From the NCBI GenBank assembly GCA_011525695.1, contig WYBX01000052.1:1-36986 (forward strand): a stretch of DNA of 36,986 nucleotides, read 5' to 3'. How positions within the stretch are numbered: position 1 is the first letter of the stretch; each line of letters opens with the position of its first letter. This stretch comes from Verrucomicrobiia bacterium (lineage in GTDB: Bacteria > Verrucomicrobiota > Verrucomicrobiia > Opitutales > Opitutaceae). Below the pieces are notes generated by a model, which saw only the letters and a program-made list of their open reading frames with translations, did no database searches and had not been told where the DNA came from. Below are positions 1,172-28,743 of the stretch, piece by piece. The translations under genes and the position numbers were made by a program.

Positions 1172-4100
1172 GCGCCGACCGGTTGCAGGCGCGCATGGGA
1201 CTCCTGGAGATTGCGGACGTTGAGCTGGAAGCGGGCCCGCACCTTGTCGCCGAATAAACGCGTCTGGTAACTCGCGAAGGCGTCGAAATACGCGTGCGCC
1301 TTGTCCCAAACCGGCCGATTCGGATCGAGTTCCTCGGCGGCTTCGAGACTGCCGTTGATCGGCACGCCGTAGTAGCCGATGGCTCCCCTGCTTTCCCAGC
1401 GCATCCCGCCGCCGACGGCGAAATTGCGCAGGATCCGATGCTGGCTGATGCCGGCAAGCCGGTAACTGGTCGCGAGATTGAAATGCCATTCGCGGATTTG
1501 CGGACGCGCGGTGCCCCGGGTCGCACCGTCGATGCGCAGCGGCGTCGTGATATTGGCGGCGATGTAGCTTCGGGCCGTTTGCGCGCCCGCCGAGGGGAAT
1601 TCTCCGACATAACCGGTGTCGAGCCACTTGGCGCCCGTGCGCGGATCGATGATTGTCTCCCATTGTGGAAACCGCTGCGTGAGCCAGCTGAAATTGCTGG
1701 GCGATTGGGCACCGTCGATGGATTCGGCCCGCGTGACGTTGGCGCGGAGCGTCCAATAATCCGACGGGTTGAAGTTAAGTTCATATTCCTCGCCGCGCGC
1801 CTCGATGTTGGTCGTATCGGCGACCGTCACGCCGCTATACGCGTCCATATCCGCGGCGGTGAGGCCCATTATCTTGTAGACCTGGGCCTCACGGTCAGCG
1901 TCGGAGATCGAAGGATTGAGCTGGGTGATCCAGTTGCGCGCCTGGCGTTGGAGCGTGAACGCCTGGACGGTGCGGATATCAGCGAAATCGACCTGGAGCG
2001 TGCGATTGGCGATGTTGGTCCCCTGGCCGGCGCGGGAGTTCATCTGCCGCGTGGTGTAGTGGTTGGCGCGCAGCATGAACTTGCGACCGAGGCTGACAGT
2101 GAAGCCGTAATCCTTTCCGACGGATCCCGGATTGGGCAGCACGGCTTGGAGAATATTGATCGCGGGCGCGGCGGGCTTGAAGCTGTCGGAGCGATTATAG
2201 AAGAGACCCAGACCCTGAAGTACGGACGCGAGCCGGCCGGTCCAGCCGGGACGCTTGCGCGCGTTTTCGATGAAGCGCCAGTCGCGAAACGGCCGGAGCA
2301 CCGCACCGGTCGTTGATGTATCCCCTTCCCGGATATCCCAATCGCCCCGCCAGCCGTCCATTCTCGCGTAGTCGAAGTCGTAGCCGTTGGGCTGGAGGAA
2401 GACGCGGTTCTGGCGCTTGTCGCCAGACTGATCGGAGCGGCGCCCCAAGGTGGTGACCAGCCGGTTCCCAAAGAACGTGCTCTGCAGGACGACACCCTTG
2501 GTCTGGAGCAGGTTGAGGTTGGAGTTGGCGTTTTCGCCTGCGCTCGCCTCGGGGATGCCCGATTCGCCGAAGGTGGCGGGGTCCGTTACCCACCGGTTGG
2601 CCTGCGGATCGAACCAGGTGAAATCGTAGTTGCCGGCCTCGGCGCGCGAGGGCGCGTAATCGACATTCTGGCCGTTGGCGTCACCGACGTAATAGTGAAA
2701 GTACGGGCGCGTCGCCTGCTGTGAAACGGGGAAACCGTTCGCCGCTCCCTGGGCACCCTTCGGCTGGCCAGCCGGCGCGTAGACGGGGTGGTCCGAGATC
2801 ATCACATCACGAAAACGGTACACGTGATTCTTGCTCTTGCGTTCCTCATAGTAGCCGAGGAACTGCTGCCGGCCCAGCAGCCGCAGCCATTTCGATTTCT
2901 CCTTCGTCAGGTCGAGCACGTAGGCGAGTTGGGCGCGATAGCTATCGCGTTCGTAGGGCGTCTGCGACCAGACAGGCTCCGCGACGCCAAGGTAGGGTTT
3001 CAAATAAAACGGATTCGTCCGGCCATCGAGCAGCCGGCTGTTGGCATCGACATAAAGCACGCCGCTCGTGCCGACGGGATTGACGGAGCCGACGGTGGTG
3101 CGGCGGAGCCGGTCCGCATCCTCCCGCTGCCAGGCAAATTGAAAAGCGGCGGTGTTGCGCCCGGTGTCGAACAGATATTGTTCGAATTCCACGGTCGAGG
3201 TGGCGACCTCCTCCCGCTGATAATTCGGACCGGAAAGATTGATGTGCGCGTAATCGTAGATCGATCGATCGGAGACGCCGCGGATGATCGAAAAAAGCGG
3301 GCGGCCTTCGCGAACGGGTTCGGGCACGCTTTCGAGCAGCCGATTGATTCCGCCGGTATTGCTGGGACCGTTGGTGGCAGTGGCGAGGGGCAGCCGGCTG
3401 ATTTCCCAGAGCTGAATCCCGCCGTTGTCGACAAACAGGATGGGGCCGGCCCGATTCATGTTGGCCAGGCCGGCGGGATTGTTGGTGCCCGTGAAAGTCC
3501 TGGCGACTCCGTTAACCGTGGCCGTCTGGGTGATGGGATCCCACGTGGGACTTCCGGTTTCGCGCCAGTAGGAGACGCCATCGCGGGGCGTCATCGCGGT
3601 CGCGCGGGTTCCGTCGGCGAGGTAGGATTGAAAGGAGGCACGCAGCGTGGTCTTCTTAAACGGCTGAGCGCGGATCATGGCGTTGAGCCGGCGGGTGTTA
3701 TAGTTGGAAGGCTTCTGGGGAGCTTCGTCGTGCTGGTAGACGGCGCTCACGCGCGCGGCGAGCTTCCCCGGGATGAGGGGGCGACTGACGTCAAAGGACG
3801 TGCGCCACCCGCCGTTGTTATCGAAGCGCAGCTGCGTGGTGGTGTTCGCACGGTTGAGGTTGGCGGACGCCGCGACCATGTTCACGGTGCCGGAGCCTTC
3901 GCCCAGCCCGAAGATGCTGGAATTCGGACCGCGGCTGATCTCCACCGCATCGATGTCGATGGGATCGATCGGCACGCGGCCGCTGGTGGCGAACCCGCCG
4001 GGTCCGGCGGCATCACGCGCGTAGTTGAATTCCTGCGAAATTCGAAGTCGCGTCCATTCAGACACGGCACCCGGATCGCACTTGCGCTGAGTAACGACGA

Positions 4101-4230
4101 GAGCCGTTCTCTCCATGGGAGCGCGCCCATCCCTCGAACTGTTTCGCGTCGAGTTTGGCGGGCGGCGTGAGCTCCTCGGGTTTCGCTGCGTCTTCGGCCA
4201 GTCATTACGGCCGGGATCTTGCGCCGGCAT
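1168..4230 (-). pseudogene. TonB-dependent receptor, both ends truncated
   Basis: Outer-membrane TonB-dependent receptor of the verrucomicrobial SPFEV type. The second half of the plug is recognisable (SGRVPIDPIDIDAVEISRGP, then NSSIFGLGEGSGTVN), followed by a long barrel similar to the receptor at 15925. Missing are the signal peptide, the SPFEV motif and the first half of the plug. The first ~55 codons of this open frame (4230 to about 4065) look non-coding, while another frame over 4195-4062 has coding-like codon choice (EELTPPAKLDAKQFEGWA), probably debris of a different gene. At the 3' end the frame stops at RNLQESHARLQPVGA, about 25 residues before the expected C-terminal strand, and runs into the fragment at 1016-1171. 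It overlaps the permease end by 26 bp. It probably gives no working receptor. Confidence 0.8.
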
Positions 4231-5647
4231 CGGGCACGGACGGTTCCTTTGCCTCGAATTCTAGCACCCCCATTGGCCGGGTCAACCCACGGGTCCGGAC
4301 TACGAGATAGATGCAGCCGGCTGTGAGCCAGGCGCCACCCGCCATCTTCGCCACGGGCGACAAACTAATCCAGATCGCCAGGCAGAATAGGAACCCCAGA
4401 CTTGGCACGATGAGGTCCGCAAACATGCGGCGCTCCTGCCCCGCTGCGCGGCGAAACCAGCATTCACGCAGCGCTGCCAGATTGACACCCATGAATGCGA
4501 GAAAAGCGCCGAAGTTCAGCAGTTCCGCTGCGTACTGATAGGGCAACAGGAGCGCGCCGCACAGCGTCAACACGCCACTGGCGATTAGGTTGAACGTGGG
4601 GGTGGCAGTACCTGGACTCAGATAACCGAAGCCACGGCGCGGCAGCATGCGATCGCGGCCCATCCGAAATAGGAGACGCGCAAGGGCCGCCTGACCAGCC
4701 ATCCCGCTCCCCACGCATGCCAGGATGAGCACAATGCCCATCGCTTGGAACAACGCATCGCCGCCGACGCGCTGCGTCACGTCCATGAACGCCGTTTCGA
4801 TGTTCGGAAAACTATCGTAGTCCGGCCAGGCGAGTTGCCCCAGATACACTTCGACGACACTGAATACTCCGGTCAGGATGCAGACGAGGACGGTGGCAAT
4901 CGGCACGCTGCGTCGCGGATCCTTTACTTCCTCCGCCAGCGTGGTGACGCCATCGAAGCCGATATACGTCAGCGCGGCGAGGGACGTTGCCGACGCGATC
5001 GCCGTCCACTTGAATGTCTCCGGATCGTAAAACGGCCGCGTCGACCACAACGCGTCGGCACCGCTCCTGTTCACGACGAAGCGGATGGCAAGTGCGACGA
5101 ACGCGGCGATGACGACGCACATGACGGTGAGCAGCGCGGCGTTCATCCGCGCGGTGGCTCGAATCCCACGTAGATTGAGCAACGTCACCATACCCGAAGT
5201 AAGCACGACCCACGCGGCGTAGGGAATGGCCGGAAGCAGCCGCTCTAACGTCAGCGAGCAAAACACGACGTTGAGCAACGGGATGACCAGATAATCGAGA
5301 AACATGGCCCAGCCGGTCAGGAATCCAAGCCGCGGACCGAGCCCCCGCCCGACATAGATGTATGCAGATCCAGCCGAGGGATGCAGGGCGGCCATGCGGC
5401 CATAGCTGAATGCGGTAAAACTCATCGCGACCATCGCGATGAGAATGGTGGTCGCGACGTGCCCGTGTGAAATCTGCGCCGCCAGCCCGAAGATTCCGAC
5501 CGGCGCGATCGGCTGGATCAGAATGAGTCCGTAAATGACAAGGTCCCGGATCGTAAGCACCCGGCGCAGTTGCGGCGCGCCGCCGCCCGGCGACAGCGGG
5601 GTCGGAGAAGCAAAGCCCGCTGCATCAGGCGGCGCGGTCGGATTCAT
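4205..5647 (-). CDS. APC-superfamily amino acid/polyamine permease
   Basis: 480 residues, about 12 hydrophobic segments, no signal peptide. After a Pro/Ala/Gly-rich cytoplasmic start, the first membrane segment (DLVIYGLILIQPIAPVGIFG) and the second (FSYGRMAALHPSAGSAYIYV) are typical of the amino acid-polyamine-organocation family: the GxxxI/P-rich helix 1 and the 'P-x-AGSxYxY' helix 2. YIGFDGVTTLAEEVKDPRR is the conserved helix 6-loop motif. It would sit in the inner membrane and import an amino acid or amine by cation symport or exchange; the substrate cannot be read from sequence. It is the only intact gene of the left flank. Its start codon abuts a remnant AraC gene on the other strand. 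It ends inside the ORF of the TBDT pseudogene, so the two may once have been co-transcribed. The ribosome-binding site is weak. Confidence 0.9.
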   Translation of the reverse strand: MNPTAPPDAAGFASPTPLSPGGGAPQLRRVLTIRDLVIYGLILIQPIAPVGIFGLAAQISHGHVATTILIAMVAMSFTAFSYGRMAALHPSAGSAYIYVGRGLGPRLGFLTGWAMFLDYLVIPLLNVVFCSLTLERLLPAIPYAAWVVLTSGMVTLLNLRGIRATARMNAALLTVMCVVIAAFVALAIRFVVNRSGADALWSTRPFYDPETFKWTAIASATSLAALTYIGFDGVTTLAEEVKDPRRSVPIATVLVCILTGVFSVVEVYLGQLAWPDYDSFPNIETAFMDVTQRVGGDALFQAMGIVLILACVGSGMAGQAALARLLFRMGRDRMLPRRGFGYLSPGTATPTFNLIASGVLTLCGALLLPYQYAAELLNFGAFLAFMGVNLAALRECWFRRAAGQERRMFADLIVPSLGFLFCLAIWISLSPVAKMAGGAWLTAGCIYLVVRTRGLTRPMGVLEFEAKEPSVPDAGARSRP

Positions 5648-5767
5648 GGCTCAAACTTGAACGATCCGGCCAACTTGTCCAACTTCAACCGGCAGTTCCT
5701 AAGACTGAAAGGTCTAAGCCCGCGACAATTCCGCGATCGGATACATTCAAGCATGGGTCAGGCTTGA
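5648..5767 (+). pseudogene. AraC-family regulator, last ~40 codons only
   Basis: The plus frame ending with TGA at 5765-5767 reads LNDPANLSNFNRQFLRLKGL then SPRQFRDRI. This is the signature end of the second helix-turn-helix of AraC/XylS regulators (GF-x-D-x-SNFNRxF...G-x-SPxxFR). The rest of the DNA-binding domain and the whole sensor domain are absent; upstream, the sequence is the permease gene in the opposite direction, whose ATG lies at 5645-5647. The regulator therefore survives only as a tail. It lies about 310 bp before the first shared promoter element, so it may be the ruined regulator of the neighbouring TBDT unit (inference). Confidence 0.7.
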
Positions 5768-6076
5768 AATGGTCGGCAAGCGCTGCTGTGACCGCGGCTC
5801 GAGCCGGGCCGGGCGCTGCTCGATGTCGGCAGGTGTTGGGGATTCGAGGCGACACCCGCTGTGCGCAATCGAGCCCCAGGCTATCCACGCCGGTGGCGGA
5901 GCTGAAGGATCGCGGCCGGAAAAAGTATCGGAATCAGGTGAGTGTCGCTCGTGGTCATGCGCGCGGTGTTCTGCTCGTTGGAAGGATTCCAGAATGACAT
6001 TTGATGCGGACCGCTTCGCCTCATTCCATTCAATCTCAATACGCGAGACCGCGTGCGGTCAGGGTTTCTGTGGCAG
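5768..6076. other. Intergenic region with a half-matching promoter element
   Basis: No convincing gene is seen. AAAAGTATC recurs at 5921-5929, followed by AATCAG one base out of register with the full element at 6077, but without the downstream GTAG. A near-palindrome GACCGC-GT-GCGGTC lies at 6047-6060, just upstream of the full element. Either could be an accessory regulator site; neither is proven. Confidence 0.35.
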
Positions 6077-6134
6077 AAAAGTATCAATAATCAGAGGAAA
6101 CCGTGTAGCTGCTCCCGCAGCATTGGCATAGATT
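6077..6134 (+). promoter_or_regulatory. Shared promoter element, copy A
   Basis: A 32-nt element at 6077-6108 starts with AAAAGTATCA and ends with GTGTAG. Twenty bases later a -10-like TAGATT lies at 6129-6134. The arrangement is repeated with identical spacing at 9348 and 15778; 20 of 32 columns are identical in all three. No TTGACA-like -35 is present at the normal spacing, which suggests activator-dependent initiation. It precedes the TBDT start by about 160 bp. Confidence 0.75.
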
Positions 6135-6296
6135 GCCCACGATCCGACCAGCGTGTCTTGTACACTACAATGCTTCCCGCCACCGATGCACCTTTCGCGA
6201 ACAGCCGCCGTTGGCGAATGGCCGCACGGGTGCCCGCCGCGGGCGGCGGAACGGTGCGTTCGTCCTCTGCTCAACCACCACCAACCCACACCACTG

Positions 6297-9191
6297 ATGC
6301 ATCCACAGAAAATCGTCTCCCGCGCCATCGTATCCTATAGTTCATTACGGTCGCTGGCGGCCCGATTTTCGCTTGGCCTTTGCCTCGCCGGAACGCTTGG
6401 CGCCCAAGTCGCGCCGGCTCCAAGTCCTGCGAAGCCCCAAGAGCAGCCCATCGAGCTGAGCCCCTTCGTAGTCGATGAGTCCAACGATGTCGGCTATCTG
6501 GCCAACAACACCCTTGCCGGCAGCCGGTTGAACACCCGGTTGAAGGACACGCCGGCATCGATCTCCGTTTTCACTCCGGAATTCCTCGAGGATCTCAGTG
6601 CCTTCCGTCTCGAGGAGGCGATGCAATACGCGGTTAACACGGAATTCTGGGACGATGACGACCGCTCAGCTCTCACCGGCAACGGCGTCTTCAGCAGCTA
6701 TCAGGATTACCGCGTGCGCGGCCTCAATACCAGTCGGGCACGCAACTACTTTCCGACTTCGGAGATTCCGACCGAGTCGGGCCTGATTGGGCGAATCGAG
6801 GACTCGCGCGGCCCGAATGCGGTGGTGTTCGGCATTGGCTCGCCCGGAGGTATCATCAATGTCAGTACGAAACAGGCGTTGTTCGGGCGGGACTTCCGGC
6901 GGGTTTCACTGACCGTCGGAAGCTTCGACGAATACCGCACCGCGCTGGATTGGAACCAGCCCTTGATCAAGGGTAAGCTGGCGGCCAGGTTGAACCTGAT
7001 TTACAACGATTCCCAATCGTTCCGGCATTGGGAGTTCGAGGAGCACGTCCGGGCGCATATCGCACTGGGCTACCGCATCACGGACCGGACCACGTTGCGA
7101 CTGGAATTCGAGCGCGGACGGGTGAACTCGAATCGTGCCGTCAGCTTCAATCTACTCGACATGGGCGCAGTGGCGTTTGTCGAAGCGGGGCGCCCGACGT
7201 TCACCAGCCGGAACGCGGGGATGCAATTGGACTTCATCGAAGCAAGCCCGAATCGTCCCTTCGTAATCTATTACGCCAACAACGGTACCGTCTACAACGA
7301 GGGTCGCAATAACTTCAGCTCGATGATAACCGCGGGCGGTGAGAATGCGATTCAGGATCGCAGTTTGGTCGACTTCTCCGTCAACCATGGTGGTCCGGCG
7401 CAAAACCGGGAGTCGTATTTCAGCGTGCTAACGGCTTTTTTCGAGCACCAGTTGACTGACAATACCTTCATGGAGATCGGCTTCGATCACCGGGAGCACA
7501 AGTTTGACTTCCGCGACCCACGCGGTGCGCGCCGAGAGTTCTTCGGCGACGCAAACGCGCTCCGGGCTGACGGCACGCCCAATCCATTCGCCGGACGGCT
7601 CTACCTGCAGGCCCAGTGGCTCCGCGGTTATCGCTTCAACGACGGCAACACCGGTCGCGCCATAATTTCGCACGACCTCGACTTTGGAAAGTGGGGCGAG
7701 TTCCGGCTCGGCGGCTACGGTGAATACGACAAGAGCTTTCTCAACATTGGCAGCTTCGAAGAAATGTGGGTGGACGCCGCGACCGGCCTGCCGCCCTTCC
7801 ACCCCAATCCGAACGACGCGCGGAACGACGTCCACCGCCGTACCTATGTCACCGAGGGCGACTGGGCGAGCTATAGTGTTAGCGGTCCTATCGGCGATGG
7901 GGGGCTGCTGGAGAATGTCCATGATCCCATCACCGGTCAGACGCTGAATTCAGTCTGGATGCAAAGCGGCGGTCCCCGCGAGGTTTACACCACGCTCAAG
8001 TCCGCCATGGTCGTAGTGCAAGGTCGCTGGTTCAACGATCGGCTGATTGCGGCCGGTGGGTTGCGGCGCGATGAATTCGCCGAGAAGACGGTCGGACGCT
8101 CTCGAGATCCGGTAACGCAGATCTGGCAGCTCGAGCGGGATCCGGCGCTCGCCGAGGCAGACGCGGGTCAGAACAGCGCCATCGGACGGACGAAGACGTT
8201 CGGTCTCGTCTACCATGTGACGCCGAAGATCTCGCTCTATTACAACTTGGCGGACAATGTTTCCGTGCCCTCCGCCGGCGCCCTCATGCTGCATCTGTCC
8301 GGCGATCCCGCCTTGGGGGCGGTGCCGGTGCCGAAGCCGGTTGGTAAAGGCGTCGATTACGGCATCGGGTTTAGTCTCCTGGATGATCGCCTCTATGTTC
8401 GTGGGACGTGGTACACCACTGAGGGCAAGGATCAGAGCGTCACGTCTCCCTCGAGGGTCAGGGGTGCCAACGAACGGATCATGGACACGCTGTTCGAGGC
8501 CGGGCTCATCACCCAGGCGGTCCGCGACGCGCGCACGAATGTCGGCGCCGACGGACTTTTCGGCCACAAGACGACGGGCGTGGAACTGCAGGTCACCGGG
8601 AACGTGACGCCTAACTGGCGGATTACCGCCGGTTATTCGTACTCCGATCCGGTCGAGAATTACCGCTTCTCGGAATGGATCGCCTGGGAGGAAATTAACC
8701 GGCAATTCCTGGCGAGCCTCGGGCCAGGCGTCATGAACCTCGTGACCGAAGCGGGACGCACCATCGGCGCGGAGCTCGAAGACGAGATTCGAGACGCCAT
8801 GGAGGAAAACACCGCCGCCGTGGGAGTCGGAAAATTTGGAAGCCGCCACCACAAGGTCAGCCTGTTCACGCGGTACAATTTTACGTCCGAGAAGCTGAAG
8901 GGCTTGTATGTCGGAGGCGGCTATCGGCATCAGTCGAAGATGTTCGTCGGGACCGACCTCGACGGGAACAGCCTCTACGGACGCTCATACTGGAGCATGG
9001 ACGCAATGGCCGGCTACACGCTTCGGAACCTCGGTTTCTTTCCCGATATCAAGCTCCAGTTGAACGTCCGGAACGTCTTCGACGACCGCGAACCGCTCGT
9101 CCTGCGGTACATGACTGACAACCGCAGCGTGCTGCGTGAACGAATCATGGCGCCGCGGACCTGGCGGCTGAGTGCCAGCTTCGAGTTCTGA
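6297..9191 (+). CDS. TonB-dependent receptor (unit A)
   Basis: Outer-membrane receptor for TonB-driven uptake of a bulky substrate, 964 residues from the ATG at 6297. I prefer this start because a signal peptide follows (LRSLAARFSLGLCLAGTLGA); the frame is open further upstream, to 6153, but that part lacks protein-like character and lies in the leader. The mature N-terminus carries SPFVV (residues 55-59), the counterpart of the SPFEV motif of this receptor class. The plug follows: NTLAGSRLNTRLKDTPASIS, then DYRVRGLN and SRGPNAVVFGIGSPGGIIN. The barrel runs to the C-terminal strand (TWRLSASFEF), with the usual LQLNVRNVFDD before it. It is complete, unlike the three other receptors here. It is the only gene between promoter copies A and B. 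No SusD-like partner is adjacent, as is common in this phylum. The ligand is unknown. Confidence 0.92.
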   Translation: MHPQKIVSRAIVSYSSLRSLAARFSLGLCLAGTLGAQVAPAPSPAKPQEQPIELSPFVVDESNDVGYLANNTLAGSRLNTRLKDTPASISVFTPEFLEDLSAFRLEEAMQYAVNTEFWDDDDRSALTGNGVFSSYQDYRVRGLNTSRARNYFPTSEIPTESGLIGRIEDSRGPNAVVFGIGSPGGIINVSTKQALFGRDFRRVSLTVGSFDEYRTALDWNQPLIKGKLAARLNLIYNDSQSFRHWEFEEHVRAHIALGYRITDRTTLRLEFERGRVNSNRAVSFNLLDMGAVAFVEAGRPTFTSRNAGMQLDFIEASPNRPFVIYYANNGTVYNEGRNNFSSMITAGGENAIQDRSLVDFSVNHGGPAQNRESYFSVLTAFFEHQLTDNTFMEIGFDHREHKFDFRDPRGARREFFGDANALRADGTPNPFAGRLYLQAQWLRGYRFNDGNTGRAIISHDLDFGKWGEFRLGGYGEYDKSFLNIGSFEEMWVDAATGLPPFHPNPNDARNDVHRRTYVTEGDWASYSVSGPIGDGGLLENVHDPITGQTLNSVWMQSGGPREVYTTLKSAMVVVQGRWFNDRLIAAGGLRRDEFAEKTVGRSRDPVTQIWQLERDPALAEADAGQNSAIGRTKTFGLVYHVTPKISLYYNLADNVSVPSAGALMLHLSGDPALGAVPVPKPVGKGVDYGIGFSLLDDRLYVRGTWYTTEGKDQSVTSPSRVRGANERIMDTLFEAGLITQAVRDARTNVGADGLFGHKTTGVELQVTGNVTPNWRITAGYSYSDPVENYRFSEWIAWEEINRQFLASLGPGVMNLVTEAGRTIGAELEDEIRDAMEENTAAVGVGKFGSRHHKVSLFTRYNFTSEKLKGLYVGGGYRHQSKMFVGTDLDGNSLYGRSYWSMDAMAGYTLRNLGFFPDIKLQLNVRNVFDDREPLVLRYMTDNRSVLRERIMAPRTWRLSASFEF

Positions 9192-9347
9192 CTGACGGAG
9201 GCGTGCCTCTGGCAGTGGGATCGAGGGTTACTTCCGGAATCGTTTCCATACGGAGCTACTTCCCGCGGCTTCCTTTAAGTCCCCTGTGTGGGCATGTGAA
9301 CGCGGCGAACTCGGCCGGCGTCACTACCGATTCGCTCCGGTGGTCGG

Positions 9348-9405
9348 AAAAGTATCAATCTTCAACCGGAAGCGGGTAGCCGTAGCCGTGCGCCGCAGTT
9401 ATCCT
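9348..9405 (+). promoter_or_regulatory. Shared promoter element, copy B
   Basis: The 32-nt element lies at 9348-9379 (AAAAGTATCA ... GGGTAG) and a -10-like TATCCT follows after 20 nt at 9400-9405. A start point near 9412 would leave almost no leader before the ATG at 9416. The true start of the next gene may therefore lie further downstream, or that ATG may be read leaderless. Confidence 0.72.
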
Positions 9406-9415
9406 TCCGCGACCC

Positions 9416-12400
9416 ATGTCCAACCGCTATACTCCGCCTCTGTCGAAGGGGAACCGGGTTTGGAACCGATTTGTATCTCGCGACGATTTGGATTTCGGTC
9501 CCGCTTTGGAAATTCATTCCTTCGTGCGCTCCCTGGATTCCCTTTCCTCGTATATTTCCACCCCGGGGCGTCACCGTGGCCACTGCCTCCGGCATTCCGG
9601 ACGATGGCGCAGGGGCGTCGCCGCTGGTATTCTGGCCGCAACGCTTGGAGCAGCCATGGCCGCCGAACGGCCGCCATACCTCGCGCCCGAGGCAGCGCTG
9701 GGCGCGTTCGAGCTGGAGTCGGGCTTGCGGATCGACTTGGTCGCGGCGGAGCCGCTCGTCGTCGATCCCGTGGCCTTCGCGTTCGATGCCGCCGGCCGGC
9801 TTTATATCGCGGAGGGTCGCGGTTACCCCGAGCCGATCGAGTCCCCCACGGCCGGAACCGAGGGACGAGTGGTTCTGCTCGAAGACACGGACGGCGATGG
9901 GCGCTTTGATCGCCGAAAGGAATTTGCCACCGGCTTGGGCTTTCCGAACGGCATCGCCCTGTGGGACGGCGGCGTGTTCGTCACGGATGCGCCCCGCATT
10001 TTGTATTTGAAAGATACGGACGGTGACGGCGTCGCGGATGAGCACACTGTCGTGCTGACCGGATTCGATCTGAGTAAAACGACCCAGTTGCGGGTAAGTC
10101 ATCCGACGCTTGGCTGGGATGGCAGGTTCTATGTCGCGGGTGGCCGTGCCGGCGGCGCGGTGTCCTCCCCGCTGCATCCCGGGCGCCCGCCGACGTCGTA
10201 CTCGTCCTCCGACGGCCGCTTCGATCCGCGGAGTTTCGTCTACGAGGCGGTCGGCGGTCAGGGGCAGTTTGGGTTCACATTCGACGCGTACGGCCGGCGG
10301 TTCACCTCCTCGAACCGCGATCCGCTCCGGCACGTGGTGCTGGAGCCGTGGCATCTCGCGCGCAATCCACACCTCGCGGTGTCCGGGGTCATGCAGGAGG
10401 TGGCGAAGAGCGGGGCCGACGCGAAGGTGTCCCGGATCAGCCAGGCGACCATCACCAGCGACTTCAACCCGAAATACATGAGCAAGCCGCACGCCGGGAC
10501 GTTCACGTCGGCGTGTTCGCCGCTGATCTTCGGTGGAACTGGTCTGTCGGCGGGTCACATGGGCGACGTCTTCATCTGCGAACCTGCGCAAAATCTGGTG
10601 CAGCGGCAGGTGATCCGACCGCACGGCGCGTCGTTCCGCTCGGAGCTGCGGTACGAAGGGCGCGAGTTTCTGGCCTCCCGCGACAGCTGGTTCCGGCCGG
10701 TGTTCGCCGCCGGGGGACCCGATGGCGCGCTCTACATCGCCGATATGCACCGGCGCGAAATCGACCATCCCCAGTATGTGCCGGAAGAAATGCGCGACGT
10801 GCTCGACTTCGGCGGTGGCAAGGGGACGACCGGTCGGATTTATCGCATCGCCCGGGATGGACCGCGGGCGCCGGCGCGAACAGCGGCCGAAACGACGGCC
10901 GGAACCGTGCGCGAACTGGAGTCGCCGGATGCCTGGTGGCGCGAGCGGGCGCGCCGCGTGCTCTGGGAGCGACGCGATCCGGCGGCTGTTCCGCTCCTGG
11001 AAAGCTGCGCGGCGGAGGCAACGCTGCCAGAGTCGCGCGCTGCGGCGCTTTGGGTCTTGCACGGGCTGGAAAAATTATCGACGGAGTTGCTCGTCGCGGC
11101 ATTGCGCGATCCGCACGCCCGCGTGCGGGAACAGGCGGTGCTGATCGCACAAGCATCCGCTTGCGGGCCGGCCCTGCTGCAGCCGCTGCTGAGGCTGGCT
11201 CGCGACCGGGATGCGCGGGTGCGTTTTGTTACGGCACTTCTGCTGGGGGATTGCGACGACTCGCAGGCGGTGAATGCGCTGGCCTCAATCGCGGTCCGTG
11301 ACGGCGAGGATTCGTGGACCCGCGCCGCGGTGTTTAGCGGCATCGGAACCCGGATGGCGGAATTTTCGCCCGCGGTGGCGAAGAGCGACGGGGCTGACAG
11401 CGAAGCCCTTGGGGCGGTCATGGAGGAACTTGGACGCGTGCTGGGCGCAGGCGGAACCGCCGACGGTCGCCGGCAGTTCTTGACCGACCTGCTGGCGGAG
11501 CACGGGGGATTCGAGTGGCGGCTGCCGGCGGTGCTTGGGCTGGCTGAAGGACTCCATGGAAAATTGCGGACGGGAAATGGCGGTGCAAATCCGCTGGCGG
11601 CGCTCCTCGATTCGGCCCCCCCTGCCGCCCGGCAGTCACTGGAGACATTCTTCACCCGCGCAGAGCGAGCCGCGGCCCATGAGACGGCGGCGCCGCGCGT
11701 GCGGACGACGGCGGTGGCGCTGCTGGGCCACACAAACTTTCGGCGGATGGAGCCTCTGCTGGACGGGTTGCTCGATGCCCGGCAGGAGGTGCCGCTCCAA
11801 CTTCAGGCGGTGCGGGCAGTCGAGCGGATGGGCGATCCACGCGGGGCCGAGGTGCTGCTGCAGCCAAACCACTGGTCCCGCTACACACCGCAGGTAAAGG
11901 AGGCGGTGCTCGGCGCGCTGTTCTCGCAGGCCTCGATGATTGAAGTCCTGTTCCGCGCGATTCGGGGCGGAACGATCGCACCGACTGAAATATCGTCGCT
12001 GCGCCGTGGGCAGCTGCTGAAGCACTCGAATCCGGGCGTCCGCAAGGCCGCGGAGTCCATCTTCGCCCATCTGGAATCCGGCGATCGCATGAAGGTGTAC
12101 CGGGAACATCGTGACGTGCTCGCTGCTCCGGCTGATGCGGGCCGCGGCGCCGGCGTGTTCGTCCGCACTTGTTCGGCGTGTCACACCTTCGAGGCGGTGG
12201 GCGGCAAAGTCGGTCCGGATCTCACGGGCATGCGTCACCAGCCGGCGGATGCGCTCCTGCTCCACATCCTGGTGCCGAACTACGAGGTGGCGCCCGACTA
12301 CCAGATGGCGACGCTCACGACCACCGATGGCCGGGCGCTTTCCGGCAGCGTGGCGGCCGAAACCGACACGAGCGTCACCCTGCGCACGCCGGCGGGAACG

Positions 12401-12541
12401 GAGGAAACGGTGCTGCGTTCGGCGATTCGCTCGCTGAGCTCGACCGGCGCCTCGCTCATGCCAGACGGACTCGAGCAGACGATGACCCGGCAAGAGCTGG
12501 CGGATCTCATCGCCTACCTGAAACAGGATGCAGTGCGATGA
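9416..12541 (+). CDS. Exported dehydrogenase-like propeller with HEAT repeats and c-type heme domain
   Basis: Planctomycete/verrucomicrobial three-part protein, up to 1041 residues. First comes a 'membrane-bound dehydrogenase' propeller (about 85-480) with two Asp-rich Ca-binding-like loops (DTDGDGRFDRR, DTDGDGVADE). An Arg/Ala-rich HEAT-like helical region follows (about 490-860). Last is a cytochrome c-like domain with C919-S-A-C-H923 and the family tail (VGPDLTGMRHQPADALL). It most likely oxidises a sugar or alcohol in the periplasm or at the outer membrane and passes electrons to the heme; the substrate is unknown. The start is uncertain. ATG 9416 puts the signal peptide (WRRGVAAGILAATLGAAMAA) about 70 residues in, which is unusual; GTG 9524 is an alternative. 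It is first in unit B, followed after 130 bp by the ceramidase-like gene. Confidence 0.88.
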   Translation: MSNRYTPPLSKGNRVWNRFVSRDDLDFGPALEIHSFVRSLDSLSSYISTPGRHRGHCLRHSGRWRRGVAAGILAATLGAAMAAERPPYLAPEAALGAFELESGLRIDLVAAEPLVVDPVAFAFDAAGRLYIAEGRGYPEPIESPTAGTEGRVVLLEDTDGDGRFDRRKEFATGLGFPNGIALWDGGVFVTDAPRILYLKDTDGDGVADEHTVVLTGFDLSKTTQLRVSHPTLGWDGRFYVAGGRAGGAVSSPLHPGRPPTSYSSSDGRFDPRSFVYEAVGGQGQFGFTFDAYGRRFTSSNRDPLRHVVLEPWHLARNPHLAVSGVMQEVAKSGADAKVSRISQATITSDFNPKYMSKPHAGTFTSACSPLIFGGTGLSAGHMGDVFICEPAQNLVQRQVIRPHGASFRSELRYEGREFLASRDSWFRPVFAAGGPDGALYIADMHRREIDHPQYVPEEMRDVLDFGGGKGTTGRIYRIARDGPRAPARTAAETTAGTVRELESPDAWWRERARRVLWERRDPAAVPLLESCAAEATLPESRAAALWVLHGLEKLSTELLVAALRDPHARVREQAVLIAQASACGPALLQPLLRLARDRDARVRFVTALLLGDCDDSQAVNALASIAVRDGEDSWTRAAVFSGIGTRMAEFSPAVAKSDGADSEALGAVMEELGRVLGAGGTADGRRQFLTDLLAEHGGFEWRLPAVLGLAEGLHGKLRTGNGGANPLAALLDSAPPAARQSLETFFTRAERAAAHETAAPRVRTTAVALLGHTNFRRMEPLLDGLLDARQEVPLQLQAVRAVERMGDPRGAEVLLQPNHWSRYTPQVKEAVLGALFSQASMIEVLFRAIRGGTIAPTEISSLRRGQLLKHSNPGVRKAAESIFAHLESGDRMKVYREHRDVLAAPADAGRGAGVFVRTCSACHTFEAVGGKVGPDLTGMRHQPADALLLHILVPNYEVAPDYQMATLTTTDGRALSGSVAAETDTSVTLRTPAGTEETVLRSAIRSLSSTGASLMPDGLEQTMTRQELADLIAYLKQDAVR

Positions 12542-12671
12542 CAACGCGCCCAATGCTCGCTGGCCGTTGCGAAGCCAAGGAATTCTCTCCAACCCTGGTC
12601 CACGCGGACGAACGCCAATCCAAGCAGCGAAGACTTGCGCTGATGTGCGGCTCCCGAACTGGTTCGACAAA

Positions 12672-14234
12672 ATGCACACCGGAAAACAACGCTTCCAATC
12701 CGTGAGCCACGCCTACCGCCGATTCCACGCATTCCAATCTGTCGAACCGGTGAAGTCCGTGACGCGAAGCCATTGGAAGCACGCCTTCGGCTGGGTGGCG
12801 GCGGCTCTGATGCTGCTCGCGAGCAGTGGCGGCTCTTTCGCGGCGGAGGCGCGAGTGCTCCGCGCCGGTGCAGCCACCAGCAACATCACCCCGGCGTTGG
12901 GCGTGTCGCTCGACGGCGTTATTTCGCAGAACGGCCCGGCGCTGCACGTGCGCGATGAATTGCACGCCCGCTGCCTCGTGCTGGACGACGGCACGGAACG
13001 GATCGCTCTGGTGGTTTGCGACAGCACCATGATGGCCGGCTTCGTGATCGAGGAGGCGAAGAAAATCATTCAGGAGCAATCCGGACTCCCGCCGGATCGC
13101 GTGCTTGTCTCGGCCACCCACGCCCACAGCATGCCGCGGGCGATCCGCATCACCGAGGAGCCGGAGGATCTGGAATACCTGCGATTCCTTGCGCGGCGGA
13201 TTGCCGACGGAGTGCAGCGGGCGGTCAACAACCTGGCGCCGGCGAAAATCGGCTGGGGTCGCGGGGCGAAACCGGAGTTCGTTCACAACCGCCGCTGGTT
13301 CGTCGAGCCCTCCGAACTCGGCGCGAACCCATTCGGTGAGGCCGGAGAAGTGGTGAAAATGAATCCCGGCAGAAAGGCCAGGCTGCTGCGACCTGCCGGG
13401 CCGGTCGATCCCGAGGTGTTCGTCCTTTCTGTCCAGCATGCGGACGGACGACCGCTCGCTTTGCTGGCGAATTATGGGTTGCACTACGTTGGCGGCATTC
13501 CCCGCGGCGTCGTCAGCGCCGACTATTTTGGCGTGTTCGCGGATCGCATTCAGCAACTCCTGAAGGCGGACCGGCAGGAACCGGCGTTCGTCGGTATTAT
13601 GGCGAATGGCACCAGCGGCGATGTCAATGCAATCGACCTCACGGCCCCCGCGCAGTCCCACCCGCCCTATGAGGAGATGACGCTGATCGCACATGCGGTC
13701 GCCGACGAGGTGTTCCGGGTATATGACCGAATCGAGCACCGATCCGACCTGACGCTTGCGATGCGCGAGATAACGCTGCCACTTCGCGTGCGCAAACCCG
13801 ATGCGGCCCGTCTCGCTTGGGCAAAACCGCTGCATGCCAGCGGGCAGGCCAAGTTTGCCGCCGGGCGGCCGTTGACCCAACCCGAGGTCTACGCGCGCGA
13901 GGCGATGTACCTGAAGGACTATCCGCACGTGACTCCCGTGAAGATTCAGGCGATCCGCATCGGCGACCTCGCGATTGGGGCGGCACCGAGCGAGATTTTC
14001 GCGGAGACGGGCCTGGCGATCAAGGCGGCGAGTCCGTTCAAGGCGACGTTCGTCATCACCCTGGCCAATGGCTTTTACGGGTATCTGCCCACACCGCAGC
14101 AGCACAAGTGGGGCGGCTATGAAACTTGGGACGCGCGGTCGAGCTGCCTGGAGATCGAAGCCGAGCCGAAAATTCGAGCCACGATGCTCGAACTGTTGGA
14201 TCAACTCGCAGCCAAACATCGGATGTCACAATGA
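12672..14234 (+). CDS. Neutral/alkaline ceramidase-like hydrolase
   Basis: Exported protein of up to 520 residues, similar to the N-terminal domain of neutral/alkaline non-lysosomal ceramidases. Visible motifs are GAATSNITPALG at the start of the domain, LVSATHAHSMP (the histidine zinc-site region), LLANYGLHYVGG, and NGTSGDVNAID, corresponding to the catalytic-serine loop (GTSGD). Bacterial members of this family are abundant in Verrucomicrobiota and Planctomycetota; most are uncharacterised, and true ceramidase activity is not implied. The frame is open back to 12528. I chose ATG 12672, but GTG 12750 or 12759 would place the signal peptide (FGWVAAALMLLASSGGSFAA) nearer the N-terminus. The C-terminal immunoglobulin-like domain of classic ceramidases appears absent. 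Its stop overlaps the following sulfatase start (ATGA), indicating coupled translation and a shared pathway. Confidence 0.87.
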   Translation: MHTGKQRFQSVSHAYRRFHAFQSVEPVKSVTRSHWKHAFGWVAAALMLLASSGGSFAAEARVLRAGAATSNITPALGVSLDGVISQNGPALHVRDELHARCLVLDDGTERIALVVCDSTMMAGFVIEEAKKIIQEQSGLPPDRVLVSATHAHSMPRAIRITEEPEDLEYLRFLARRIADGVQRAVNNLAPAKIGWGRGAKPEFVHNRRWFVEPSELGANPFGEAGEVVKMNPGRKARLLRPAGPVDPEVFVLSVQHADGRPLALLANYGLHYVGGIPRGVVSADYFGVFADRIQQLLKADRQEPAFVGIMANGTSGDVNAIDLTAPAQSHPPYEEMTLIAHAVADEVFRVYDRIEHRSDLTLAMREITLPLRVRKPDAARLAWAKPLHASGQAKFAAGRPLTQPEVYAREAMYLKDYPHVTPVKIQAIRIGDLAIGAAPSEIFAETGLAIKAASPFKATFVITLANGFYGYLPTPQQHKWGGYETWDARSSCLEIEAEPKIRATMLELLDQLAAKHRMSQ

Positions 14235-15640
14235 AACACGTTCTCTTCCTGCTTCTGATTACTGCCGTTCCGGCGCTCCTGCCGGCGGCTACCAATGATT
14301 CACTGCGGCCGAACGTCGTGGTTGTGTTGATGGATGATCACCGTTGGGACGATCTCGGCTGCACGGGCCATCCCTTCGTCAAAACGCCGCACATCGACCG
14401 GATTGCCCGGGAAGGGGCGCGATTTGCCAGCGCCTTCGTGACGACACCGCTCTGTTCGCCGAGTCGGGCTGGATTTCTCACGGGTCAATACGCGCAACGC
14501 ACCGGAATCACAGACAACATCGCACGAAACCAGCGCAGCCATGAACTCAGGACGTTTCCTCGAATGCTCCACGGCGCCGGTTACGCGACTGGCTTTGTCG
14601 GGAAGTGGCACATGGGCACCGACGATTCGCCGCGACCGGGATTCGATTATTGGGTAAGCGTTCAGGGCCAGGGCGACTACTTCGATCCCCGGCTCAACAT
14701 CAATGGCCAGACAACCGCGGCCCATGGTTACGTGACCGATATTTTCACGGATCACGCGATCGCGTTTCTGAAACAAAATCACGGGAAGCCGTTCTGCCTG
14801 TGGCTTGCGCACAAGGCAGTTCATCCGGATGCCCGGCAGAATGCAGACGGGTCGGTCGATCAGAACTCGGTCGCGAAGAATTTTTTCCCTGCGGAAAGGC
14901 ATAAGCGATTATATGCCGGACTTACCCCGCCGCGGCGCCCCAACTTTGGCGCGCCAAAGAACAAGCCAGCCCTCGAGCGCGCCGTTGGGAACCTGCCGCC
15001 TCTGAGCCGTGAAACCGGCACCGACGACGAAACCATCCTCAACCGGTTGCGAATGCTGGCGGCCGTCGATGAAGGTCTCGGGCGCCTGCTGCGTCAGCTC
15101 GAGGAGTCAGGGCAGCTCGACCGAACGTTTTTCGTCTTCACCAGCGACGAGGGTTACTTCTACGGGGAGCATGGACTGAGCGTGGAGCGACGGCTGGCAT
15201 ACGAGGAGTCGATTCGGATCCCGCTGCTGATTCGCTACCCCGCGCTGATAAAGGCGGGAACGGTCGTCGATGCGATGGTCCTGAATCTCGACCTGGCGCC
15301 GACGATCCTGGAACTCGCCGGGGTGCGCGTGCCGGCAGACGTGCATGGCAGATCGCTCCTGCCGCTGCTTTCCGGTCGCGAGTCCGCGCTGCACGACAAC
15401 TTCCTGATCGAATATTTCAGCGATACCGTGTTTCCGCGGGTGCATCGGATGGGCTACAAAGCGGTGCGATCCGACCGCTGGAAGTATATCCACTATCTGG
15501 AGATTCAGGACGCGGATGAGCTCTACGATCTTCAACGCGATCCCTATGAGTTGCACAATCTCGTCCGCGAGCCGCGCGCGGCGGTGGGCCTCGATCGTAT
15601 GCGTGCGGAGTTGGCCAAGCTGCAGGCATCGATTCGATGA
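14231..15640 (+). CDS. Sulfatase (S1 family, formylglycine-dependent)
   Basis: 469 residues, type I sulfatase that removes sulfate esters outside the cytoplasm. It has a signal peptide (VLFLLLITAVPALLPAA), metal-binding DD at residues 35-36 (VVLMDDHRWDD), and C75-S-P-S-R79, the core signature in which Cys becomes formylglycine; a maturase must be encoded elsewhere. GFVGKWHMG supplies the conserved Lys/His pair. The second metal motif reads TSDEGYFYGEHG, with Glu where DN or DH is commoner; worth noting but seen in related sequences. ATG 14231 is preferred over the longer frame because it overlaps the preceding stop (ATGA) and is followed at once by the signal peptide. It is last in unit B. 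Ceramidase-like plus sulfatase suggests a sulfated amide- or lipid-linked substrate (inference). Confidence 0.92.
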   Translation: MKHVLFLLLITAVPALLPAATNDSLRPNVVVVLMDDHRWDDLGCTGHPFVKTPHIDRIAREGARFASAFVTTPLCSPSRAGFLTGQYAQRTGITDNIARNQRSHELRTFPRMLHGAGYATGFVGKWHMGTDDSPRPGFDYWVSVQGQGDYFDPRLNINGQTTAAHGYVTDIFTDHAIAFLKQNHGKPFCLWLAHKAVHPDARQNADGSVDQNSVAKNFFPAERHKRLYAGLTPPRRPNFGAPKNKPALERAVGNLPPLSRETGTDDETILNRLRMLAAVDEGLGRLLRQLEESGQLDRTFFVFTSDEGYFYGEHGLSVERRLAYEESIRIPLLIRYPALIKAGTVVDAMVLNLDLAPTILELAGVRVPADVHGRSLLPLLSGRESALHDNFLIEYFSDTVFPRVHRMGYKAVRSDRWKYIHYLEIQDADELYDLQRDPYELHNLVREPRAAVGLDRMRAELAKLQASIR

Positions 15641-15717
15641 GGCGATCAGGGACAGTCACCCGACCTGAAGACCGCGGAAGTGGACCCGCTTCGCCTGCCC
15701 GGAATCCGGAGCCGTGC

Positions 15718-15731
15718 CCGTAGGCCTACGG
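15718..15731. promoter_or_regulatory. Perfect 14-bp palindrome
   Basis: CCGTAGGCCTACGG is its own reverse complement. It lies 46 bp upstream of promoter copy C and 77 bp after the sulfatase stop. It could be an operator for a dimeric regulator. Copies A and B lack it, so it would act only on unit C; chance is possible. Confidence 0.3.
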
Positions 15732-15777
15732 ACATGATCCTGCACGCGGATGGCCTCCTGCGCGGACGAATCGTCGA

Positions 15778-15835
15778 AAAAGTATCAGTATACAACCGAA
15801 ACGATGTAGATCAGTGCTGCGCGTTCCAATACAGT
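15778..15835 (+). promoter_or_regulatory. Shared promoter element, copy C
   Basis: The 32-nt element lies at 15778-15809 (AAAAGTATCA ... GATGTAG) and a -10-like TACAGT follows after 20 nt at 15830-15835. The leader to the ATG at 15925 is about 83 nt. The spacing is identical to copies A and B. It drives the TBDT, propeller-like and DUF4838 genes of unit C. Confidence 0.75.
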
Positions 15836-15924: not shown

Positions 15925-18900
15925 ATGATGCCGAATAACCTTCTCAGTCGGCGGTCCTCAGCGAGCATGCATGCCTGTTGGATGCTTCTGCTGGCGACGC
16001 CCCAGTTTGCCCAGACCGTGCCTTCCCGCGCGCCCGACTCTGCGACGTTGGCGAGATACGACCGCGACCGAAACGGTGTCCTCGATTCCGGGGAGTTGGC
16101 GAGGATGGAGGCCGACCAAAGTCGGGCGGCAACGGCGGCGAGCAATCGTTCTGCTGAAGCGCAAAAGACCTCGGGCGAGACTCTGTTGATGTCGCCGTTC
16201 GAGGTGACCGAGCAAAACCGCGGATACTATGGTTCCAACGCGATGTCCGGCACCCGGCTGAATACCGCCATCGAAGACATCGCTGCGAGCGTGACGGTGG
16301 TGACCAAGGAGCAAATGGCCGACTTCGCCGCCCTCGATATCAACGATATCTTTCTCTACGAGGCCGGGACCGAGGGAAGCGGAACCTACACCGATGTCAG
16401 CGCGAACGGTGACGGCGTGCCCATCGACAACACCCAGCTCAATCCGAACAACGCCAACCGCATCCGTGGCCTCAGTTCGGCGAATTTGTCTTTCGGCAAT
16501 TTTCAGGTCACGGGAAAAGTGCCCGTGGATCCGCTCAGTCTGGAGGCGGTCGAAATCAATCGGGGTCCCAACTCCAGTGTGTTCGGCCTCGGCAATGCCG
16601 GCGGCACGGTGAATCTCCAACCTGCGACCGCGAATCTTAAACGCAATCGCTCGCAACTCGCCGTCCGGTTCGACAGCTTCGACGGCAACCGCACGAGCCT
16701 CGATCTGAACCGCGTGCTCAGGAATGGCGTTCTGGCGGTGCGCGGGCAGGCCGTGTATCAGCACGATGGTTTCAACCTCAAGCCGTCAGGCACGGACACG
16801 GTGCGCTTGAATGGCATGGTGAAGATCCAGCCGTTCAAATATACCACGATCAGCGCATCCCACTCGTCTTACCGAATGCACGGAAACCGGCCGAACACCA
16901 CCACGCCGCTCGATGGTATCAGCCTGTGGGAAGCGTCGGGGCGGCCGACTTTCGATCCGCCGACCGCCACCATCCACATCAACGGCACGTCGCTTCCGAA
17001 CCGGACCGTCAGCACCTTGCCCGACTATTTCGCCGGTTCGAACTCGCTTCGAGAACTCTCCAGTTTCGCGATCGATCGGAACGGGCAAATCTCGGCCTAC
17101 ATGCCGATGCAGGCCACCAGCAGCACGACCGACCCTGTGGCGAGCAGGCAGCAGGTTTACTTCGTCATCACCTCGCCCGAATCCCTGAGGACGACCCAGC
17201 CGCTGTGGGCGAGCAACCCGGTGATCCGTGACAAGGCCATTTACGATTGGTCCTCGATCAATTTGGCCGCGCCCAACCGCCTGGATCACAAGACGAATAT
17301 TTCGTATGCGACGCTGGACCAAATCTTTTTTCAGACTCCCCGCCATATGTTGGCCGCGCAAGCCGGTTTCTACCGGGAAGACGGCAATCAATATAACTAC
17401 AACGTAATCGGCAGGGCCGGGTCCTCGGGGCGTATCGCCTACCTGTCCATGGACGTGAACGAGCGGCTAATCAACGGCCAGCCCAATCCGAACTTCATGC
17501 GACCATTTTTGGGGGTCAACGCTCCACAGGCCGACCGGCAGATTCAGCGCTGGCAGACGGGCCGGGCGCAGATTGCCTACCGGCTCGACCTGCGCGAGGA
17601 AAAGACCGCGTGGCGCTGGCTTGGGATGTTTCAAACCACGGGATACTACGAATATTCCGACCGCGTGTCGCGTCAGATCGCCTATCGCGACGTCATCGTG
17701 GACGACCATTCCTGGACGTTGTCGAATATCGCCCGCGGTTCCACCAACCCGGCCCAGGGAGGAGTAGGCAATTCCAATATCTACCGCCATTTTCTCCGTT
17801 ATTATGTCGGCGACAATGGCCCGCGGGTTGATTACGCGCCCGGGTCCTTTGCCTATGGCGTGTATCCGTATACATGGGGCAACGGACTCACCGGAGCGTT
17901 CCGGAACGAAATGGTTGAGCTCGGCCAGAGCTTTGGAGTCGACGGTACCGCAGCCAACGCCAATACGCATCAGATTCTCAAGACTTCCGGTGTCGTGCTG
18001 CAAAACTATCTCTGGCGCGACCGCATAATCACGACCGTCGGCACGCGCCGCGACGAAAACTACAACAAGTACGGCATCACCCCGACTTGGAACGAGGATG
18101 GGACACTCAACATGAGTTCCTTCAATGCCTGGTCGCCGGCCGACTGGAATGTCAACAAGGGCACGACGAATACCGCCGGGATTGTGGTGAAACTGCGTCC
18201 GTGGATGAGCTGGCTGGCCCTCCACGCGAATGTGTCCAGCAGCTTCGTGCCGGCGGCGGCGAAGATGAGCGTCTACGAGCAACCGCTGCCGGACCCGACG
18301 GGCAAGGGCGAGGACTACGGGTTCACGCTGAATCTCTTCCAGTCAAAACTCCTCGTGCGCGTGAACCGTTATGACACTCTACAGAATAATGCGCGGGCAG
18401 GGCTGACCGCGGCAGCGCGGGTGCGAGCCATGGATTTCGATTTTGCCAGCGTGTCGACCAACAGGGGGAACTGGCTAAACTATCAAGTGGAGCAGTGGCT
18501 GACCGAAGCCGCGGAGGCGAGAGGTCAGACCCTCACCCCGCAGCAGCTCATTCAGCAGCAGGCTGAGGTCATGAAAATCGATCCAAAATACCTCGAGCAT
18601 TCCTTTCCCAATAATGTCATCGACGAGACGGGAAACAAACGGGCGCGAGGCACCGAAATCGAACTCAATTACATTCCCACGCCGTACTGGACGTTGAAGC
18701 TGAATCTGGCGCAGCAGGAGTCGATCTCCACAAATCTCTCGCCCAACGTGAAAGCATGGATTGCGGAACGTCTGCCGATCTGGAAATCGATCGTCGATCC
18801 CCGGACGGGCGAACTTTGGTATAACACCCGCTACGAGGGAGCGTCGGTATCCGCCGGCGAATTTCTTGCCGCCACCGTGCTCACCCCGATGGGGGTCGAC

Positions 18901-19325
18901 ACGGCGCTCGAAGGGAAGAGCAACCCGCAGATCCGCGAGTATAACGTGAAAGGCCTCACGAGCTTTCGGCTCGCGGGGATCACGGACCATAAATTCTCAA
19001 ACGCTTTACGGTCGGCGGTGCACTGCGATGGGAAAGCGCCGGCGCCATCGGCTACTATGGCGTCCAGCAACCGCCGGCCATCGTCACGGATCTGGATCCG
19101 AGCAAGCCGATCTACAGCCGCCCCAATCTCTACGCTGACGCGTTCGTGTCCTACCGCACGCGCCTATTCCGCGACAAGATTGCCGCCACGTTTCAGTTGA
19201 ATGGCCGCAATCTGCAGGAGAGTGGCCGGCTGCAGGCGACTAACGCCTACCCCGATGGGACACCGTGGACCTTCCGCATCGTCGATCCACGCCAGTTTAT
19301 CCTGACAGCAACGTTCGAACTTTAA
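15925..19325 (+). pseudogene. TonB-dependent receptor with EF-hand, one-base frameshift (unit C)
   Basis: Receptor of the same class as that at 1168-4230. After the signal peptide there is a canonical EF-hand calcium loop at residues 46-57 (DRDRNGVLDSGE), then SPFEV (90-94), then the plug (GYYGSNAMSGTRLNTAIEDI ... VEINRGPNSSVFGLGNAGGT) and a long barrel. The frame in use ends at 19200 with a nonsense tail. From about 19003 another frame continues as the expected C-terminus: RFTVGGALRWESAGAIGYYG ... FRIVDPRQFILTATFEL, stop 19323-19325. The break lies at 18995-18999, where HKFSN should read HKFLKR; one C seems lost from TTCCTC. Either a real recent mutation or a sequencing/assembly error; the rest of the gene shows no decay. 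The downstream gene starts 13 bp after the restored stop, consistent with an operon. Confidence 0.85.
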
Positions 19326-28629: not shown

Positions 28630-28680
28630 TCGCGTCCGTTGTGCGGCTTCCGCCGCTCAATCCGCGATTCAATCCCGCTC

Positions 28681-28736: not shown

Positions 28737-28743
28737 CCTATTC
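28737..28743. repeat. Target-site duplication, right copy (CCTATTC)
   Basis: Identical to 25956-25962, directly after the IS right end. Removing the IS and one copy restores a continuous intergenic region between the DUF1552 remnant and the next TBDT. Confidence 0.9.

Follow-up and report, generated by a model that had tools for sequence, protein, structure and literature searches.

A recurring 37-bp promoter element in an Opitutaceae contig as a predicted site of an AraC-family regulator clade

Contig WYBX01000052.1 of the Verrucomicrobiia bacterium assembly GCA_011525695.1, which was analysed over its full length of 36,986 nt (the window), carries three copies of a promoter element. The site itself, its spacing, its linkage to one clade of AraC-family genes in nine genomes, and the stub of one of these genes inside the window were established in this work. 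Judging from their sequence, the three elements are probably sites at which an AraC-family regulator activates uptake and breakdown genes from a -10 box located 20 nt downstream.

The 32-nt cores of the elements (6077–6108, 9348–9379, and 15778–15809, all on the forward strand) aligned without gaps, and 20 of the 32 columns were identical. All three cores had GTAG at columns 29–32, followed by 20 nt and a TA...T box. This arrangement had been described in the initial annotation, and it was reproduced here. The boxes TAGATT (6129–6134), TATCCT (9400–9405), and TACAGT (15830–15835) on the same strand are predicted -10 boxes by their position. A search with the 20-column pattern, allowing up to three mismatches, returned these elements as the sole matches in the window, and none of 100 dinucleotide shuffles of the window contained any match. 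Throughout the 6.54-Mb genome (G000), the same search yielded the three window sites and two sites on contig C108, at 28415 (C108a) and 36561 (C108b). The reversed pattern gave no matches in this genome at the same threshold. A looser search added a site on contig C140 of this genome (147–178, reverse strand) and one in a genome of the same genus (G016:C531:9637).

We aligned 17 copies from nine genomes (alignment A2), taking column 1 as the start of the 32-nt core. The 32 nt delimited earlier were found to be real, but the conserved block starts 5 nt before column 1, resulting in a 37-bp site with the consensus GTCAGAAAAGTATCAG-N5-GTGnnAAAnCGTGTAG. The site comprises two imperfect 16-bp direct repeats, 21 bp apart. 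On the forward strand of the window, the predicted AraC-family dimer sites occupy 6072–6108 (element 1, with half-sites 6072–6087 and 6093–6108), 9343–9379 (element 2), and 15773–15809 (element 3). G at column -4 and C at -2 were invariant in 17/17 copies, together with AAAGTAT at 2–8, A at 23, GTAG at 29–32, and T at 53, where the -10-like box begins. Self-comparison of the site profile gave lag 21 as the best and only positive direct-repeat lag among 8–28. An inverted-repeat architecture was rejected, as the same comparison gave no inverted symmetry. With C138:29536 (a further site, on contig C138 of this genome) added to the aligned copies, T was found exactly 20 nt downstream in 18/18 cases and TA in 11/18. 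Within the genus, TA occurred at +20 in seven of eight sites, and it was seen only 0–5 times at the other offsets (8–33).

The upstream flanks of the 17 copies were dissimilar (columns -19 to -5 carried 0.01–0.34 bits), which indicates that the copies are sites and not duplicated DNA. That they derive from the termini of mobile or repetitive DNA is therefore so improbable as to be negligible. The short repeats are indeed near-identical, and the window contains a presumed IS21-like gene pair. However, besides the lack of homology between the flanks, same-strand genes follow wherever the contig permitted a look, there are few copies per genome, the -10 spacing is fixed, and the copies are linked to AraC genes.

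Two models were used in the searches for further copies. R1 was built on aligned copies including six training sites of this genome, and R2 on 11 sites, all from other genomes. On the window, R2 ranked elements 1–3 first to third (E = 3.5e-5, 0.011, and 0.095, respectively). The next match (E = 0.31) was a lone AAAAGTATC at 5921–5929 (+), lacking a downstream half, between the AraC stub and element 1; it is possibly a decayed half-site. Genome-wide, R2 returned the C140 site, C108a, element 1 (C37:6077), and C108b at E ≤ 0.016, and nothing else. R1 gave scores of 42.1 bits for element 1, on which it had been trained, 36.1 bits for element 2, and 34.6 bits for element 3. It retrieved its training sites plus one new site in this genome, C138:29536 (E = 0.029), which was absent from the training set. 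This site has GTTG in place of GTAG, with TAGGAT 20 nt later, and lies approximately 15 kb from the AraC gene of contig C138.

Whole-genome searches with one mismatch found the element in 9 of 11 genomes, as compared with three matches in two genomes for the reversed control. The two genomes without it in this search, G020 and G013, contain only lower-scoring AraC proteins, and G013 gave one match at E = 0.5. In a 387-genome sample of the phylum, the exact element was detected in three genomes: the one studied here (five sites), G547 (three sites; also the genome of AraC locus L084), and G386 (one site). The reversed control matched four genomes, once each. The single G386 match was set aside as chance, since it falls within an open frame and has neither the upstream G.C nor the T at +20. 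Four sites were present in a Kiritimatiellae genome, G585, whose coordinates are those of G547. Several other patterns were set aside. The loose core AAAAGTATC-N19-GTAG with one mismatch matched 37 of 57 genomes, and its reversed control was equally frequent; the loose core alone is thus uninformative background. A shifted-register pattern, AAAGTATC-N20-GTAG, gave 119 matches with two mismatches versus 235 in its control, and the known sites were not among the matches listed. Another shifted-register pattern (N12 for N11) matched 2 of 387 genomes, none of them the present one, and served as an unplanned negative control.

The element is linked to a regulator gene. In G016, the element is immediately preceded by a gene of the AraC family. 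The best matches of this gene in the genome studied here were the proteins encoded at C108:35675–36553 (59% identity) and C138:44676–45566 (56%), followed by a 29-residue piece at window positions 5669–5755 (66%, E = 4.9e-5). By sequence match, this piece is part of a truncated AraC-family gene at 5669–5767 (+), of which the last 32 codons and the stop codon are left. The translation, NLSNFNRQFLRLKGLSPRQFRDRIHSSMGQA followed by the stop, corresponds to the C-terminal part of the protein and contains its second recognition helix (NLSNFNRQFLRLKG...). The stub ends 300 bp before element 1. The remainder of the gene is missing, and a divergent permease gene starts at 5647. Among the gathered AraC proteins, the C138 protein was the best match of the stub (68% over 31 residues); the third was L222, from outside the clade, and the fourth to twelfth were nine other clade members. 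The genome thus holds two intact clade genes, on C108 and C138, besides the window stub. The stop codon of the C108 gene lies 4 nt ahead of column 1 of C108b.

We then compared an alignment of three AraC proteins, one of them from the G016 locus (L078), with genome contigs, and obtained 32 relatives. In all eight with at least 53% identity (L078–L085), the element is found at the AraC gene. They originate from Verrucomicrobia, one 'uncultured bacterium', one Methylacidiphilum sp., and one Kiritimatiellae genome. Seven of these loci are divergent, with column 1 located 8–25 nt from the start codon of the AraC gene, and in one the element is downstream. The distances in the divergent loci suggest that the regulator would control its own gene there. 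Altogether, 9 of the 10 full-length clade genes found have an adjacent element, in nine genomes. The 24 distant relatives (27–39% identity) and 29 same-family loci (L111–L139) contained 13 exact AAAAGTATC matches, and GTAG was not at its expected position in any of them; this search covered the exact core only. In the 387-genome sample, AraC matches at E ≤ 1e-140 were confined to G000 and G547, and 19 genomes had matches at E ≤ 1e-70. Apart from the G386 match, the exact sites were found in these two genomes; the site and the AraC clade thus occur together, in a sample with only two such genomes.

The second-helix segment NLSNFNRQF is invariant in 10/10 clade proteins, and the second recognition helix of the C108 and C138 proteins matches that of the stub. 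A next-closest AraC match, in G426 (L208; E = 4.6e-127), is preceded at a distance of 23 nt, near position 2379, by a diverged look-alike, AAAGTATCG...ATAG-N20-TTTTCC, which was noted by eye, is not included in our counts, and is not retrieved by R1. This look-alike, with its ATAG for GTAG and its T at +20, may mean that site and regulator drift together.

The clade belongs to the AraC/XylS regulators. The C-terminal domain with two helix-turn-helix motifs (HTH_18) scored 84.1 bits in the C108 protein and 80.8 bits in the G016 protein, with a cut-off of 33.6. The N-terminus of the C108 protein matched AraC_binding (34.5 bits, cut-off 21.1) and Cupin_2 (30.9 bits, cut-off 27.2), making it a 290-residue one-component protein with a cupin/AraC_binding N-terminus. 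Its best NCBIfam match by E-value was RhaS. Assignment as RhaS was rejected (56.3 bits, cut-off 288), as were AraC itself (46.5 bits, cut-off 208), RhaR (44.1 bits at best, cut-off 525) and MelR (28.1 bits, cut-off 253), according to the NCBIfam equivalog cut-offs. In a sequence search of solved structures, all matches of the C108 protein were confined to the DNA-binding part.

With this regulator, an AraC-family dimer would likely bind the two 16-bp direct repeats and recruit RNA polymerase to the predicted -10 box. Placing the T of the -10 box at -12, the half-sites would cover -69 to -54 and -48 to -33. The downstream half-site would then take the place of the -35 hexamer, as in class II activation, and the T at +20 in 18/18 copies fits this placement, the -10 box being a sequence-based prediction. 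Positive feedback may operate on C108, where C108a is followed, about 7 kb further along that strand, by the AraC gene.

Two other readings of the promoter were weighed. Repression by the AraC protein at these sites is improbable. The site does overlap the predicted -35 region, and in the seven divergent loci it lies close to the AraC start, at the distances given above; yet there is no -35 that could support transcription without an activator, and the fixed-distance T in all copies is expected for polymerase contact. The initial annotation had proposed an activator-dependent promoter or a special sigma factor. The activator is favored by the adjacent AraC gene in nine genomes and by the direct-repeat geometry. 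The sigma factor found no support, with no search aimed at sigma genes near the sites: a promoter of the extracytoplasmic function (ECF) type, with GGAA/GAAA and a downstream box, is highly improbable. The absence of a standard -35 and the GAA-like stretch at columns 21–24 of the G000 copies would be consistent with it. However, an ECF promoter consists of a short -35 and -10 only, and the 37-bp conserved block with an invariant far half upstream of the -10 is too long for that. Furthermore, the -10 box is TAnnnT-like and the element is tied to an AraC gene.

The inferred activation by AraC-family binding has known counterparts. AraC-family proteins bind direct repeats, and in the excerpt of PMC11434276 the proximal half-site of Escherichia coli AraC overlaps the -35, with I2 at -35 to -51. 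Binding of AraC at araI1-I2 (class II, araBAD) resembles the present case in the family and in the proximal half-site over the -35, predicted here at -48 to -33. Unlike in E. coli, the sequence motif is different, and the NCBIfam AraC model fits the C108 protein only over the DNA-binding part (46.5 bits, cut-off 208). For the hybrid two-component systems (HTCS) of Bacteroides thetaiotaomicron, the excerpt of PMC3878776 gives predicted direct repeats averaging 21 bp apart, with two 16-bp sites and a 5-bp spacer for HTCS_Man, and proposes that paralogs share sites; these systems control polysaccharide loci. The geometry there, 16-bp sites with a 5-bp spacer, is the same as here, and a hybrid two-component protein (12aw_A) was the best solved-structure match of the DNA-binding part of the C108 protein (E = 4.2e-8). 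In contrast, the present protein is a one-component 290-residue cupin protein with no hybrid kinase, from another phylum and with another motif. CdhR and GbdR of Pseudomonas aeruginosa, which respond to carnitine and glycine betaine, are likewise AraC-family proteins, divergent from the operon and using direct repeats (for CdhR, 6-bp half-site sequences with a 15-bp spacer; PMC5806209, in the excerpt available). The occurrence of MTTB and permease genes in one operon here is a further likeness. CdhR differs, being called a class I activator of the GATase-1 subfamily in that excerpt; the protein here has a cupin domain.

The genes behind the sites differ between the window and elsewhere. At the 15 sites outside the window, the first gene encodes a DegT aminotransferase in nine cases (C108a, G016, G580–G584, G586, and G585d), a GFO/IDH/MocA dehydrogenase in three (C108b, G585a, and G585c), a GH16-like protein at G585b, and, named from its sequence only, a quinoprotein-dehydrogenase-like protein at the C138 site; the gene downstream of the C140 site is cut off by the contig end. 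The first genes in the window encode two TonB receptors and one CxxCH heme protein. The enrichment at TonB-receptor, sulfatase, and DUF4838 genes that the initial annotation anticipated was thus not found. With 12/15 first genes being DegT or GFO/IDH/MocA, the regulon looks like one of sugar or amine catabolism and not a TonB-receptor regulon. Further genes at the sites include xylose-isomerase-like, alpha/beta hydrolase, MTTB, APC permease, and Ceramidase_alk-like genes (the L169 one below the Pfam cut-off). Sulfatases lie near AraC in L171 and L172, and by similarity in L170. Judging from these genes, the ligand may be a methylated amine or a sugar carrying sulfate or amino groups. Locus L172 has an MTTB-family (trimethylamine methyltransferase-like) gene at 11689–13170 and an APC permease in the AraC-linked gene row, and a pyruvate-formate-lyase-like glycyl radical enzyme is encoded nearby in L170; both hint at amine chemistry.

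Several observations weigh against the reading of the elements as activating sites of this clade. The AraC gene beside the elements is a stub, and elements 2 and 3 have the lowest R1 scores among the six training sites of this genome. Genome-wide, R2 missed the sites at 9348 and 15778 (150 of 673 candidates were scored), and in seven other genomes of the genus it gave one match (G017, E = 0.16). Unrelated weak R1 matches begin at E = 0.078, close to the value of C138:29536, so that the case for this site depends on the -10 spacing and on the contig where it lies. The intact C138 AraC gene has no adjacent element, with a weak one approximately 15 kb away, and the clade is present in only two genomes of the 387-genome sample. 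At +20, C108b has TTAAAG instead of TA, and C140 has TAACCC. The lag-21 score was equalled by 283 of 20,000 column shuffles, so the direct repeat is supported with modest strength; many of the 18 copies are related, and the invariance of the columns therefore overstates their independence.

Because of the stub and the low scores of elements 2 and 3, the window elements could be relics. In that reading, the cluster has lost its local regulator and is in decay, with promoters that are by now silent or driven by something else. The frame-shifted TonB receptor genes at 15925 and 28616–31749 point the same way. We regard this as rather unlikely, since G.C, AAAGTAT, A23, GTAG, and T53 are all intact in the three elements while their flanks differ, and the genome still has two paralogs whose second recognition helix is the same. 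If the elements are active AraC-family sites, the window operons would have been left without a regulator of their own, and their sites would now be read in trans by the C108 paralog, the C138 paralog, or both. The single regulator assumed in the initial annotation should accordingly be replaced by a paralog clade (C108, C138, and the stub); the shared promoter stands, being recurrent, of the activator type, and present at several operons. With somewhat less than even confidence, we propose a broader scheme, in which a phylum-spanning AraC/site pair runs an undescribed catabolic pathway (DegT, GFO/IDH/MocA, MTTB, permease, sulfatase, and CxxCH heme protein), and the regulator-less window cluster was captured in trans by two paralogs of the same specificity. 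If true, the capture wires TonB receptors, a heme dehydrogenase, a sulfatase, and DUF4838 into a three-locus regulon. The orphaned cluster, which has kept its sites but no more than a stub of its regulator, would allow regulatory capture between paralogs to be tested.

An AraC activator with a 21-bp direct repeat is of a known kind; the regulator, the site, and the regulon are new as far as searches show. Among the matches listed, no open-licence PMC paper described the motif or the regulator, by title and the start of the abstract, and of the 262 papers containing strings of the motif, the 20 listed look unrelated by title. Sulfatase and TonB-receptor clusters like that of the window have no known control here. 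With a regulator paired to a precise 37-bp site that can be searched for, sequence alone is enough to assign operons to the regulon; the pairing also suggests that Verrucomicrobia and Kiritimatiellae have an unnamed catabolic pathway in common.

The gene classes named in the initial annotation were confirmed, with one protein left without a family. Behind element 1 lies a TonB-dependent receptor gene (6153–9191, +), whose probable start is at 6297, judging from a signal-like N-terminus. Element 2 precedes a PVC-type CxxCH heme-binding protein with DUF7133, HEAT, and cytochrome c (9416–12541, +), 54% identical to a neighbor of the C138 AraC gene. A Ceramidase_alk-like protein (12528–14234, +), 46% identical to a counterpart adjoining the permease in the AraC-element locus L171, and a sulfatase (14126–15640, +), 60% identical to that adjoining the C138 AraC gene, follow. 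The permease divergent from the stub, an amino-acid permease (APC; 4205–5647, -), is 58–60% identical to those of L171 and L172. Owing to these similarities of the permease, the ceramidase-like protein, the heme protein, and the sulfatase, the window cluster belongs with the AraC loci elsewhere. Element 3 is followed by a TonB-dependent receptor (15925–19200, +), a protein without Pfam or NCBIfam match (19339–20658, +), and a DUF4838 protein (20740–22713, +). The frame of this receptor gene shifts near the 3' end, a TonB-receptor-like C-terminus being present in another frame, due to decay or an assembly error. Adjoining the permease is another TonB-dependent receptor (1168–4230, -), an open frame without a normal N-terminus. 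At 26252–28629 there is a pair that we take, from its open reading frames (ORFs), to be IS21-like istA/istB. It lies directly upstream of a broken TonB receptor gene (28616–31749), split across two frames (28616–29941 and 30256–31749). The stretch from 31700 to 36986 is decayed, with many short broken-looking ORFs, including a HisKA fragment and what is presumably a RadC-like piece.

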